Below are positions 30,690-61,129 of a stretch of 64,000 nucleotides of DNA, piece after piece (within the stretch, counting starts at the first letter, position 1; each line of letters begins with the position of its first letter). Below the pieces are notes generated by a model. That model did no database searches and was not told the origin of the DNA. It saw only the letters and a list, made by a program, of their open reading frames with translations. The translations under genes were made by a program, and so were the position numbers. Where the stretch lies: contig NZ_CP033580.1 of the NCBI RefSeq assembly GCF_003722315.1, positions 1,487,001 to 1,551,000 on the forward strand. The letters are read 5' to 3'. This stretch comes from Thermoanaerobacter ethanolicus JW 200. GTDB lineage: Bacteria > Bacillota > Thermoanaerobacteria > Thermoanaerobacterales > Thermoanaerobacteraceae.

Positions 30690-30696
30690 GTCAAAT

Positions 30697-31024
30697 TGTA
30701 GATAAACTTTCGTAAAGGAGATATTTTGCATAAGGAGCAACTTGTTACAAAGCGACCCGGCACTCAAGTAAGAGAGTTTGATAAAGCAAAAATAAAAAAA
30801 ACAAGTATACTTACTTGAGTGCCGGGAAACTTAGCAAGACCGAGGGTGGAGGCAGGGCCGAAGCCAAGGAGGGCGGAGGCGGGCACCTTAAGGCATGGAT
30901 GCCACCTGACGTAGGTACCCTGCCGGAACCTGAAGGGGAAGCTTATGTTTTGTCGCTTTGGAACATCGGAGCGACGATGCAAAATATCTCCTTTGAATAT
31001 TTTTTTAACTTTGTCAACAAACTG
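30697..31024. repeat. dispersed structured repeat, copy 1 (328 bp, MITE-like or structured RNA)
   Basis: Shares its ends and core with 60313-60575. Terminal arms contain a perfect 17-bp inverted repeat (30714-30730 with 30978-30994, AAAGGAGATATTTTGCA). Inside it a second stem pairs CAAAGCGAC with GTCGCTTTG. The centre is GC-rich, unlike the surrounding DNA, with GGCAGGG (30851-30857) facing CCCTGCC (30918-30924) and a small hairpin GGCATGGATGCC (30892-30903). No convincing gene is inside. Copy 1 also carries an extra 71-bp hairpin at 30756-30826 that copy 2 lacks. This accounts for the whole 485-bp gap between rsmE and mtaB. Confidence 0.8.
30756..30826. repeat. nested hairpin insertion inside repeat copy 1
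   Basis: CCCGGCACTCAAGTAAG (30756-30772) has its exact reverse complement at 30810-30826, a 17-bp perfect stem around a 37-nt A-rich loop. Copy 2 of the repeat has only a few bases at this place, so the hairpin is either an insertion in copy 1 or a loss from copy 2. Confidence 0.75.
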
Positions 31025-49137: not shown

Positions 49138-50358
49138 GTACGTGCGCCCGGCATGGGCGATAACTAGGCGGTGAAAGTCCGCTGTGGGCTTGGTAGTGGG
49201 AACCACTAGCCAAGAGCAAGGGTGTCCATCGTGAGGTGGAATCTGAAGGAAGCTTAAGGCAAAATCTCGGTCTGATGAACAAGAACCAGATAAGAGGCTG
49301 AATTGGGATGGATGAGTTTGCGTAACAAAACGAAGTCCAACACTACCCGAATCCCATACAGTAAATCTGGCAGATATATGAGATGAAAGTTATCGTTCTT
49401 ACCCGGGGAGGTCTCAAGGATAAGTCATGGAAGTAAAATCTGAAGTGACAACCCATGCAGTGATGTATGGCTGAACCTTGAGAAGTCAGCAGAGGTCATA
49501 GTACTTATCTAGACAATAATAGATAAGGAAGGACCGAACGTTAGGAGGTTTTGGAAATCTTATGGACTCGAAAGATATGCAGAGACTGCAGACAACTCAA
49601 CCAAGAGGCTATCCGTTGAATAGAGAAATGGAATTTCAAAAGACAACGGAAGTGCATAGTATATCATCGGCGTCGGAAGATGGAAGAAACGAGGTACAAA
49701 GATATACCGGCAAGATGCTTGAAATGATAGTAGAACGAGGGAACATGGAAGCAGCATACAAGCGCGTTGTTGCAAATAAAGGAAGCCATGGAGTCGATGG
49801 GATGGGAGTAGATGAACTTCTACCGTATCTCAAAGAAAACTGGGCAACCATAAAACAACAACTGCTGGAGGGGAAATACAAACCACAACCAGTGCGAAGA
49901 GTAGAAATTCCCAAACCTGATGGAGGAAAAAGACTACTAGGAATACCTACAGTACTAGACAGACTAATACAACAAGCAATAGCCCAAATACTAAATAAAG
50001 TCTACAACCATACATTTTCTGATAGCAGTTATGGATTCAGACCAGGACGCAGTGCAAAAGACGCAATAAAAGCCGCAGAAGCATACATAAATGAAGGATA
50101 CACATGGGTTGTAGATATGGACTTAGAAAAGTTCTTTGACAGAGTAAACCACGACGTAATAATGTCCAAACTAGAAAAGCGGATAGGGGACAAAAGAGTA
50201 CTAAAGTTAACACGAAAATAGACTATCTAAAAGGAGAATTTTGAACATTGACAACTGCATAGGCTTAAACATCCAGCCAGAAAAAAGGTAATAAATATTA
50301 AACCAATGCTTTAAAAGCATCAGCTGGGAATTTTTGTAAAGTTATCTAATTATACTAC

Positions 50359-51869: not shown

Positions 51870-52796
51870 TTAATACGAAGATACTTAGAATCAGGAGTAA
51901 TGATAAACGGAATCAAAATATCAACAGAAGAAGGGACACCCCAAGGAGGGCCATTAAGTCCCCTATTAGCAAACATAATGTTGGACGAACTAGACAAAGA
52001 ACTTGAGAAACGAGGGCATAAATTCTGCCGATATGCAGATGACTGCAACATATATGTAAAAAGCAGGTCTGCAGGAAACAGAGTAATGAAGAGCATAAAG
52101 AAATTCATAGAAAGCAAATTAAAACTAAAAGTCAACGAAGCAAAAAGTGCTGTAGATAGACCATGGAGAAGAAAATTTCTTGGATTTTCATTCTATACAA
52201 AAGAAAACGAAGTAAGAATAAGAATCCATGAAAAATCCATCAAAAGGTTTAAGGAAAAAGTAAGAGAAATAACCAATCGGAACAAGGGAATAAGCATGGA
52301 AAACAGAATAAAAAGACTAAATCAAATAACAACAGGATGGGTCAACTATTTTGGATTAGCAGACGCGAAAAGCATAATGAAAACCCTTGACGAATGGATA
52401 AGGCGAAGACTAAGGGCATGTATATGGAAACAATGGAAGAAGATAAAAACGAAGCATGATAACTTAGTAAAACTAGGAGTAGAAGAACAAAAAGCCTGGG
52501 AATACGCCAATACAAGGAAAGGCTACTGGAGAATATCCAATAGCCCAATCCTAAATAAGACTCTTACAAATAAATACTTTGAAAGCATAGGTTATAAGAG
52601 TTTATCCCAAAGATATCTAATTGTACACAATTCCTAATGAACCGCCGTATACCGAACGGTACGTACGGTGGTGTGAGAGGACGCTGAATAAAATAATTAT
52701 TCAGCTCCTACTCGATATTTAAGATTATTGTTTTTTGACCATTCATGTTATAATATTAAGTAAAATTGGTAACTTTAATAGTAGGAGGAGAGTTAA

Positions 52797-56103: not shown

Positions 56104-56456
56104 GGGGGTGTACTGGTTTCGACGGGGGCAGTCGAGGTAAAAGTAGCGAGCCGAGTTGTCCGCCAGCTCGTAAAAATGGTGGAGTAAAAATAAACGCAGA
56201 CAGAGAATTAGCTTACGCTGCCTAATTTAAGGTAGCCGTCCAACCTGAAATGCCCACGTTTCAGGATTGGGCGTCAAAAAAGTGGGGAACTGGTTTTGCT
56301 CAGGCTTCGGGGCAAAACCGGAACTTATGAAGCTACCGAGGCGGTTATCCTGTCGCTGGGAGAACCGCTGAGGGAAAGTTAAAACAGCGACTGCGCTCGG
56401 AGAAGCTTTTACTGTGACGCCTTCGGACCGGGGTTCGACTCCCCGCACCTCCACCA
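56104..56456 (+). ncRNA. ssrA: tmRNA
   Basis: 353 nt. The 5' end GGGGGTGTACTGGTTTCGAC and the 3' end with GGGTTCGACTCCCC and CACCTCCACCA form the tRNA-like domain (7-bp acceptor stem, one G-U, CCA encoded). The tag frame is 56196-56225: GCA GAC AGA GAA TTA GCT TAC GCT GCC TAA, giving ADRELAYAA. Pseudoknot-rich GC segments follow. Directly downstream of smpB. Confidence 0.98.
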
Positions 56457-59574: not shown

Positions 59575-60261
59575 ATGACTATAAGTTCGGTATATAATGA
59601 AATGTTTGATATAAATCGACAGAAAGATATGAGAAAATTTTTCCTTAATATAGCTATACAGGGATATAAAAAGAGTTTTTTGAAAAATGAAACTATAACA
59701 ATTAATTATAACAAACCATATATTGCCATAATAACAAAAGGGTTGATAAAGCAATTTATTTCAAATAAAAATGGAAAGATAAAAGTTCTTTATTTGCTGC
59801 AACCAGGGGAAATATTTGGAGAATTTTCCTATTTAGGAGGAGGATTTGATTTAATTGAAGGTCAAGCTATAAAAGATAGTGAAATATCTATTATTTTTGA
59901 AGATAAATTAAGTTCTATTCTGGAAACAAATCCTGATATGTATAAATATATTGCTCATAGCATGAGCAGAAAATTTAGAATTGTTACTATGCAGATGAGC
60001 GATTTGATTTTCAAAGATTCAATGGGAAGACTGTGCGATTTTCTAATTAGATTATTCTATCAACAAGGCAAGAAGATAAAAAAAGGTTATATAATAGATA
60101 TTCCTTTAACCCATGAGAATATTGCCAATTTAATAGGATGTGATAGAGTAACGGTTACAAAAGGACTAAATAAGTTAAAAAAAGAAGGTTTAATTGAGAT
60201 AGATGGAAAAAAGATTATAATAAAAGACCTTCGCTACCTTGAAAATTATGCGGATTCATAA
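59575..60261 (+). CDS. Crp/Fnr-family transcriptional regulator
   Basis: 228 aa. The N-terminal cupin-like cNMP-binding domain (about 20-140, IITKGLIKQFISNKNGKIKVLYLLQPGEIFGEF) lacks the arginine/serine signature of true cAMP binders and the cysteine set of FNR, so the effector is unknown. The C-terminal winged helix has LTHENIANLIGCDRVTVTKGLNKLKKEGLIE. AAAGGGG precedes the ATG. The gene stands alone; its targets are not evident. Confidence 0.9.
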   Translation: MTISSVYNEMFDINRQKDMRKFFLNIAIQGYKKSFLKNETITINYNKPYIAIITKGLIKQFISNKNGKIKVLYLLQPGEIFGEFSYLGGGFDLIEGQAIKDSEISIIFEDKLSSILETNPDMYKYIAHSMSRKFRIVTMQMSDLIFKDSMGRLCDFLIRLFYQQGKKIKKGYIIDIPLTHENIANLIGCDRVTVTKGLNKLKKEGLIEIDGKKIIIKDLRYLENYADS

Positions 60262-60286: not shown

Positions 60287-60312
60287 CAACCCCGCCTTAA
60301 GTGGCGGGGTTA
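60287..60312 (+). repeat. left 26-bp direct repeat (hairpin) flanking repeat copy 2
   Basis: Contains the hairpin arms AACCCCGCC and GGCGGGGTT (60288-60296 and 60303-60311). An identical 26-bp copy stands at 60576-60601. It is probably the terminator of the Crp/Fnr gene, duplicated on insertion of the repeat. Confidence 0.85.
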
Positions 60313-60575
60313 CAGACTGTAGACAAACTTTCGTAAAGGAGATATTTTGCATAAGGAACGACTTGTGACAAAGCGGCAACAAAACTTAGCGAGACCAAGG
60401 GTGGAGGCAGGGCCGTAGCCACGGATGGCGGAGGCGGGCACTAAGACAAGGATGTCGAATGTGCCCGGTACCCTGCCGGAACCCGAAGATCGAGTTTAGT
60501 TTTGTCGCTTTGGAACATCGGAGTGACGATGCAAAATATCTCCTTTGAATATTTTTTAACTTTGTCAACAAACTG
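60313..60575. repeat. dispersed structured repeat, copy 2 (263 bp)
   Basis: Second copy of the element at 30697-31024, without the nested hairpin. The perfect 17-bp inverted repeat (60335-60351 with 60530-60546) and the CAAAGCG/CGCTTTG stem are kept, as is the GGCAGGG (60406-60412)/CCCTGCC (60471-60477) pairing. The small internal hairpin is GACAAGGATGTC (60445-60456) against GGCATGGATGCC in copy 1, a compensatory G-C to A-T change. GC-rich in an A/T-rich region; no gene inside. Confidence 0.85.
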
Positions 60576-60601
60576 CAACCCCGCCTTAAGTGGCGGGGTT
60601 A
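60576..60601. repeat. right 26-bp direct repeat (hairpin) flanking repeat copy 2
   Basis: Exact copy of 60287-60312. It can act as the terminator for the Crp/Fnr gene and for the convergent DJ-1 gene, which ends 22 bp away. Confidence 0.85.
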
Positions 60602-60622: not shown

Positions 60623-61129
60623 TCACTTAACCTTTTCAATTATGGCTTTTACAAAAGCTACCAAATCATTTGGAGTTCTGGAGGTTATTAAATTTCCATC
60701 TACAACTACTTCTTCATCTACATACTGGGCTCCTGCATTTATTAAGTCATCTTTTATTGAGAAAAAGCTTGTCACTCTTTTTCCTTTTAAATTGCAAGCG
60801 GAAGCCATAATCCAGGGGCCGTGGCAAATAGCCGCTATGGGCTTTTGCAGTTTGTCCATTTCTTTGACAAAATTAATAGTGTCATTACATCTCCTCATGT
60901 AATCAGGTGAATAACCTCCAGGGACTATTACTGCATCATAATCTTTGGCTTTTACATCTTTTGAAGCATGGGTGCTTTTCATTGGATATCCATGTTTTCC
61001 TGTATATACTTTGTCTTTTTCTGGACCTATTAAATGTACTTCATATCCTTCTTCTTTAAGTCTATAGTATGGATATAGTAGTTCTGGTTCTTCATACATA
61101 TTCTCAATTAATATAGCAATTTTTTTCAT
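60623..61129 (-). CDS. DJ-1/PfpI-family protein
   Basis: 168 aa with the class I glutamine-amidotransferase-like fold. The nucleophile elbow is AAICHGPW (Cys, followed by His) and the conserved Glu lies in the N-terminal ENMYEEPELLYP. The family includes PfpI/YraA-type intracellular peptidases and DJ-1 deglycase-like proteins, so the reaction is uncertain. Minus strand, own promoter. Confidence 0.92.
   Translation of the reverse strand: MKKIAILIENMYEEPELLYPYYRLKEEGYEVHLIGPEKDKVYTGKHGYPMKSTHASKDVKAKDYDAVIVPGGYSPDYMRRCNDTINFVKEMDKLQKPIAAICHGPWIMASACNLKGKRVTSFFSIKDDLINAGAQYVDEEVVVDGNLITSRTPNDLVAFVKAIIEKVK

Follow-up and report, generated by a model that had tools for sequence, protein, structure and literature searches.

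A MITE of Thermoanaerobacter that is probably mobilised by an IS1182-family transposase and appears to duplicate whole terminator hairpins on insertion

A hairpin-flanked element between convergent genes

The window analysed in this study is the whole 64,000-nucleotide stretch of Thermoanaerobacter ethanolicus JW 200. Within it, two convergent genes, at 59575-60261 on the plus strand and 60623-61129 on the minus strand (named Crp/Fnr and DJ-1, respectively, in the original prediction only), direct their 3' ends towards a 263-bp element at 60313-60575 on the plus strand. Identical copies of a 26-bp direct repeat, CAACCCCGCCTTAAGTGGCGGGGTTA, abut this element exactly on the left (60287-60312) and on the right (60576-60601), both read on the plus strand, and a repeat search confirmed both coordinates of this bracketing, which had been predicted from the sequence. 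The repeat folds as a single hairpin (DNA fold, z -4.6), and no further matches with three or fewer mismatches were found elsewhere in the window, with 0 expected from 100 shuffles.

The element is bounded by imperfect terminal inverted repeats that were absent from the original list of features, namely CAGACTGTAGACAAA on the left (60313-60327, plus strand) and a right repeat (60561-60575, minus strand) that reads TTTGTCAACAAACTG on the plus strand. A perfect internal inverted repeat, previously given as 17 bp, is indeed present and measures 18 bp, with its arms at 60335-60352 and 60529-60546. The description of the core as GC-rich holds only in relative terms, with a GC content of 47.5% against 34% for the window. 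Almost the entire core folds, with z -8.4 on the plus strand and z -9.9 on the minus strand, and it is overlapped only by two minus-strand open reading frames of 61 aa, which we took to be spurious. We classified the element as a MITE, on the basis that it is short, non-coding and multicopy, has ends in common with an insertion sequence (IS), and is accompanied by a target duplication.

A second, more diverged MITE copy of 333 bp was identified at 30692-31024 on the plus strand, between the diverged hairpins AATGCCCTTTAGGGCATGT and AATGCCTTCGGGGCATGT. This copy contains an extra internal foldback, an insert of approximately 71 bp with a 16-bp inverted repeat at its borders (CCGGCACTCAAGTAAG...CTTACTTGAGTGCCGG), and the same type of insert was found in a 332-bp copy at another locus (L020). 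Elsewhere in the window, we noted Rfam matches to group II intron domains at 49225-49534 and 52640-52716, near the tmRNA gene at 56104-56456.

Distribution of the MITE and its likely parent

We identified 49 pieces that match the element in its own genome (a 2.91-Mb contig), several of which are parts of one copy, and matches in all ten Thermoanaerobacter genomes of the genus set. Among the matches listed, near full-length copies occur in at least nine of the ten, and G007 is without one there. The hairpins at the flanks of different copies differ in sequence, usually with one on each side. In one genome (G006), at least 14 copies of equal score were present among the matches listed, as after a recent burst.

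Pattern and family searches of this genome additionally identified eight elements, each 1560 or 1566 bp long, with MITE-like ends, CAGACTGTTGACAAA and TTTGTCAACAAACTG, the first of which is the counterpart of the left MITE repeat and the second identical to the right one. The transposase of these elements scores 489.8 bits against the NCBIfam IS1182 equivalog NF033551 (cut-off 270), and contains the Pfam domains DUF772 and DDE_Tnp_1_6. The IS1182 family spans a size range of approximately 1.3-1.95 kb, into which these elements fall, and they carry terminal inverted repeats at both ends. All eight full-length copies of this genome lie between duplicated hairpins, with repeats of 20-32 bp, within the 2-60 bp of variable direct repeats that the accessible text of PMC7335449 gives, after ISfinder, for the family.

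From 15 IS loci, two of which repeated others, 13 distinct copies were taken, of which 11 were analysed (L061-L068, L304, L305 and L325) and two from G001 with a diverged left end (L303 and L324) were left out. A hairpin repeat was found in ten of the 11, the exception being L325. In all 11 copies the transposase frame leaves the IS before its stop codon is complete, and this codon, supplied by the target, ends 1-72 nt beyond the IS. An IS with 79% protein identity from another family of the same order (G308) has the repeat AGGACTTTTTAGTCCT. Another type of IS in this genome was judged by eye to have non-hairpin repeats of approximately 5-10 nt, indicating that hairpin duplication is not general to the insertion sequences of this genome.

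The element had been predicted to be non-autonomous, and the IS1182-family IS with the same ends is its likely parent and likely mobiliser. From the common ends and the common target rule, we infer that the transposase of this IS would mobilise the MITE in trans. The genomes G006 and G009 are rich in MITEs, yet the transposase was found there only as degenerate fragments, and the mobiliser is therefore not seen in every host.

Duplication of the target hairpin

We assembled 92 insertions with distinct flanks, both element ends and 60-nt flanks (84 MITE and 8 IS), drawn from the extracted loci, which are a subset of all genus matches. Elements with less than 60 nt of flank were left out, as, deliberately, were loci L212-L261, and rows with a common 20-nt flank were merged by keeping the best-scoring one. 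The 92 are distinct flank sequences and not necessarily independent events, L043 and L128, for example, being the same insertion in two genomes.

An abutting direct repeat with a score of at least 13 was identified in 78 of the 92 insertions (70/84 MITE and 8/8 IS), against 4 of 4539 pairings of wrongly paired flanks. The search for other copies proposed in the original prediction returned a multicopy core that mostly sits in a local hairpin pair. Nearly all of the repeats (98.7%) fold at -5 kcal/mol or below, against 6.2% of control segments, and the median fold energies are -12.2 and 0 kcal/mol, respectively.

The repeats range from 16 to 40 bp, and 72 of the 78 share their centre with the hairpin dyad. 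In 65 of 77 insertions, the repeat begins at its 5' end 1-3 nt before the outermost G-C pair; in 72 of 77, the distance to this G-C foot does not differ between the two sides. Repeat length is correlated with stem length measured between the G-C feet (r 0.78). An alternative measure, stem extent, gave a weak correlation (0.37 for MITEs), because the A/T borders pair past the cut, and was dropped in favour of the G-C-foot measure.

The 14 insertions below the repeat threshold mostly have related but diverged hairpins on both sides. No matching hairpin pair was found at the flanks of three loci, L018, L138 and L277, where a deletion, a rearrangement or a different event could account for its absence. 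We additionally identified three-copy arrays, in the order hairpin, element, hairpin, MITE, hairpin, at L130 (G002) and L137 (G003), two sites that are apparently orthologous; the left element of the L130 array is a 185-bp remnant. Evidence of two-copy (partial) arrays was found at L132, L136, L142 and L143.

Empty and occupied sites in related genomes

Empty sites were prepared for 18 insertions, nine of which were searched in the genus, and the window locus was also searched in named genomes. The count takes in continuous matches across the hairpin only, split matches being occupied or unclear sites, and three loci present under two names were counted once each. Exactly one hairpin was found within 500 bp in all 47 site-by-genome cases, covering nine sites, and a separate scan of 59 loci of relatives contained no tandem hairpin pairs. 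The original prediction had held that a single hairpin at empty sites would prove duplication upon insertion and that tandem pairs would refute it; a single hairpin was found at the window locus and at eight other sites, and these comparisons support its reading that the hairpin is duplicated when the element inserts.

At the site corresponding to the window locus, T. wiegelii has a single hairpin that differs at one base, and T. thermocopriae and a Clostridia MAG were seen by eye to have another palindrome at the same position. In Caldanaerobacter subterraneus DSM 13054 (L146), the orthologue of the gene at 59575-60261 is followed downstream by a degraded hairpin and then by sequence unlike that of the other genomes, as would be seen where a rearrangement or another mobile element begins. 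Some sites are occupied in other genomes: a terminator that carries an IS in G000 appears, as judged from hit spacing, to be split in G006 and G009 by 264-265 bp, which is the size of a MITE.

Position and predicted effect at host genes

We examined the gene context of 37 MITE insertions with long flanks, using simple ORF calls. In 34 of these, one or both neighbouring genes point their 3' end at the element, and none of the 37 elements lies between two 5' ends. No orientation bias was found among co-directional neighbours (10 versus 10).

The near copy of the hairpin runs into element sequence, which on the sense strand is CAGACTGT, with 2 T in 8, and on the antisense strand CAGTTTGT, with 4 T in 8. 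The far copy keeps its native flank, and has a mean of 5.1 T in 8 on the sense strand and 4.8 on the antisense strand, with at least 5 T on at least one strand at 70 of 78 sites. Near and far copies differ clearly in T content on the element's sense strand and weakly on its antisense strand. The original expectation that both neighbouring genes are left terminated calls for a qualification, as the native flank is kept at the far copy alone.

The neighbouring genes should terminate at the far copy if not earlier, with a predicted extra 3' UTR of up to approximately 289 nt at the window locus. Since a whole hairpin is left on each side, the MITE probably spreads with little harm, and the insertion sites fit this. 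With its far terminator copy in the native flank and its target regenerated, the element illustrates a way in which a selfish sequence could do almost no damage.

A core related to TwoAYGGAY RNA

No Rfam family matched the element at gathering level. In a relaxed Rfam search, positions 60362-60519 on the plus strand, with the loops ACGGAT and AAGGAT, resembled TwoAYGGAY RNA (RF01731) at an E value of 9e-4; its 34.6 bits fall short of the gathering score, 43, and the 21 remaining rows of this search were taken as chance. The best score of this genome among the matches listed is 40.1, and elements with similar ends in G119 (L214), G128 (L218) and G040 (L228) lie above the gathering score, at 73.6, 63.8 and 53.5, respectively. 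Structurally, the core contains the two hairpins with conserved GGA loops inside a long covarying helix that characterise this RNA (a table entry in PMC2864571; also PMC11701678, as far as the accessible text of both goes). The window copy is a close structural relative of RF01731 and, by the curated cut-off, not a member. TwoAYGGAY itself is listed among structured RNAs, under the Rfam type cis-regulatory, whereas here its relative lies inside a transposable element.

Matches to RF01731 were found in 45 of 299 genomes of a phylum sample, many with several. We aligned 29 cores, three from this genome and 26 from other genomes; L232 and L235 were deliberately excluded, as were the incomplete L219 and L236. 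The GGA loops are nearly kept in this alignment, and 14 of 15 consensus pairs have two-sided changes.

A first search for long direct repeats at the TwoAYGGAY loci of other genomes returned one clear hairpin repeat (L218) among 30. A further search, aware of the terminal inverted repeats, covered 46 loci outside Thermoanaerobacter and detected both ends in 15, a proportion that is not unbiased, since all 15 are in four of 28 genomes (G119, G128, G040 and G170) from which further copies were retrieved once these ends had been recognised. The 46 loci are what remained of 50 after removal of two cut by contig ends and two duplicates, and the search included five extra G255 loci, a genome that gave none. 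The right end at L246 is probably a chance match; one such end occurred in 10 of 600 shuffled windows.

A test independent of the terminal repeats covered 61 loci from 28 genomes and identified seven hairpin repeats, all of them in G128, G040 or G037, against none in 112 shifted controls. The repeats of G128 and G040 are clear and those of G119 diverged; the flank comparison for G119, G040 and G170 used one row each in unturned strand orientation. Most TwoAYGGAY loci tested outside Thermoanaerobacter had neither these ends nor the hairpin pattern.

In G037 (L339-L343), TwoAYGGAY cores lie within multicopy elements that are nearly identical to one another and have quite different inverted ends, TATCCTTGC...GCAAGGATA. 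The hairpin-repeat match in this genome is probably another element with these other ends. The non-matching ends elsewhere and the other ends in G037 indicate that the core also occurs outside this MITE, and the G037 elements suggest that TwoAYGGAY RNA is carried by elements of more than one type. Relatives of TwoAYGGAY inside transposable elements of several Bacillota offer a testable lead on the reason for the scattered, multicopy occurrence of this RNA.

Proposed mechanism and alternative explanations

We propose, with a probability of roughly 0.9, that the MITE is moved by an IS1182-family transposase, and that its target hairpin is chosen by shape and duplicated whole. The transposase would act in trans on the MITE via the common terminal repeats, and would pick hairpin-capable palindromes, mostly intrinsic terminators, irrespective of their sequence. 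The transposon ends would be joined to the two target strands symmetrically, at the hairpin feet or immediately outside them (on each strand, the 5' foot), and the dyad symmetry of the repeats and the tracking of stem length by repeat length argue that these joining points are set by the hairpin. Gap repair would then copy the entire hairpin, and yield a direct repeat as long as the hairpin itself. The insertion would regenerate the target hairpin on both sides, and a target that is duplicated would not be consumed, with which the tandem arrays agree. On each strand the near copy would be without the native T-tract, allowing read-through, and the far copy would retain it; neighbouring genes would probably still terminate, with the element as an extra segment of their 3' UTR. 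Of this scheme, the sequences themselves show that the hairpin is duplicated when the element inserts, that the repeats are symmetric about the dyad, that IS and MITE have common ends and that the elements lie at gene 3' ends.

The structure seen by the transposase might be single-stranded, a palindrome in duplex form or an extruded cruciform, the last of which we infer. The principal alternative is that a transposase dimer reads the double-stranded palindrome, through its sequence symmetry or bendability, and not an extruded cruciform or a single-stranded hairpin. What the data contain is dyad symmetry and not extrusion, and the A/T-rich borders of the sites would be readable as duplex DNA; the varied stem sequences, the wide range of stem lengths and the unpaired loops, however, suit a folded hairpin better, and we regard duplex recognition as rather doubtful.

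Less probable still is that the element is a functional TwoAYGGAY-like RNA gene with terminators of its own, whose mobility is incidental or past. The resemblance of the core to RF01731, the very stable fold and the stems that covary among distant genomes, with changes on both sides of nearly all consensus pairs, would all be expected of such a gene, but the high copy number, the presence or absence of the element between genomes and the target duplication point to mobility, and we consider an RNA gene with incidental mobility improbable. As a functional RNA and a mobile element, the sequence can be both. A broader reading would combine the two: a DDE transposase reads hairpin shape and not sequence, joins at the two feet, duplicates a target of any sequence whole without using it up, and also mobilises a covarying TwoAYGGAY-like RNA into the 3' UTRs of several Bacillota lineages, where the RNA may function itself. 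We put this forward tentatively, and give it somewhat less than even odds.

A canonical transposase with a fixed stagger of approximately 23 bp, and a mere preference for AT-bordered terminator regions, would agree with the median repeat lengths (MITEs, 23.5 bp; IS, 22 bp), and with the A-rich and T-rich sequence that borders the insertion sites. We rejected this as very improbable, as the repeats vary widely in length, follow the length of the stem and are centred on its dyad. That the terminator hairpins belong to the element, with no target duplicated, would equally predict identical copies at any one locus, but is refuted by the empty sites and retains next to no probability, the hairpins differing between sites and each site's own hairpin being present once in its element-free relatives (47/47).

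Returning to selection of the hairpin by its shape, a transposase guided in this way would, if the proposal is true, be of interest as a tool.

Relation to known elements

The original prediction considered such a target unusual for known small elements, which is in part mistaken, as targeting of hairpins and terminators by IS1182-family elements has been published (PMC3098183, PMC4923244 and PMC5678879, of which the accessible text is used here). ISCbo5, of the IS1182 family, is described from Clostridium botulinum group III and C. novyi-NT, and all of its sites but one are hairpin-forming inverted repeats at gene ends that are presumed to signal the stop of transcription (PMC3098183). The present elements share with it the transposase family and the hairpin targets at gene ends. 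They differ from the accessible part of that account in the direct-repeat lengths, the single-hairpin empty sites and the MITE reported here, although its wording of a "surrounding hairpin" suggests that a duplication may already have been seen there (PMC3098183).

IS1272/TnSha1, of the same transposase family, likewise targets hairpins without a common sequence, several of which are confirmed terminators, and the TnSha1 transposase gene is without a stop codon (PMC5678879 and PMC4923244, accessible text). In these accounts the hairpin is deleted wholly or partly and the target is not duplicated, whereas in the present elements the hairpin is duplicated. Stem-loop replacement of the IS1272 type was not what we observed, the hairpin being duplicated in 78/92 insertions and single at empty sites. 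Duplication of the whole stem-loop is drawn, in the accessible part of PMC5678879, as hypothetical pathway b of Fig 13, an alternative to the IS1272 deletion; the present insertions provide natural genome-wide evidence for this route, drawn as a possibility for IS1182-type transposases.

The long, variable repeats described here agree with the accessible record of the IS1182 family (PMC7335449), and differ from it in being resolved as whole, dyad-centred hairpins, which would explain why target repeats in this family are long and variable. The preference for gene 3' ends is likewise in agreement with the accessible text of PMC9208149, in which IS1182 is among ten families over-represented between convergent genes. 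ISCaa15, also of the IS1182 family, has 4-bp repeats (PMC3196728, accessible text) and IS1272 none, so hairpin duplication is not common to every IS of this family.

A literature search that took in few subscription papers, and lay outside the ISfinder and TnPedia pages, returned no paper on dyad-centred duplication of whole hairpins with empty sites, nor on an IS1182 MITE of this sort; a search likewise confined to few subscription papers returned none, among the papers listed, on TwoAYGGAY within a transposable element or in transposition. Hairpin targeting by IS1182 elements is already known; the duplication evidence on a genome-wide scale, the MITE and the likeness of its core to TwoAYGGAY look new. 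As judged from the accessible text of PMC10969869, the MITE resembles the SPRITE, RUP and BOX elements of pneumococcus, which are small non-autonomous repeats, some of them terminator-like; SPRITE resembles a terminator itself, whereas the present element targets and duplicates terminators.
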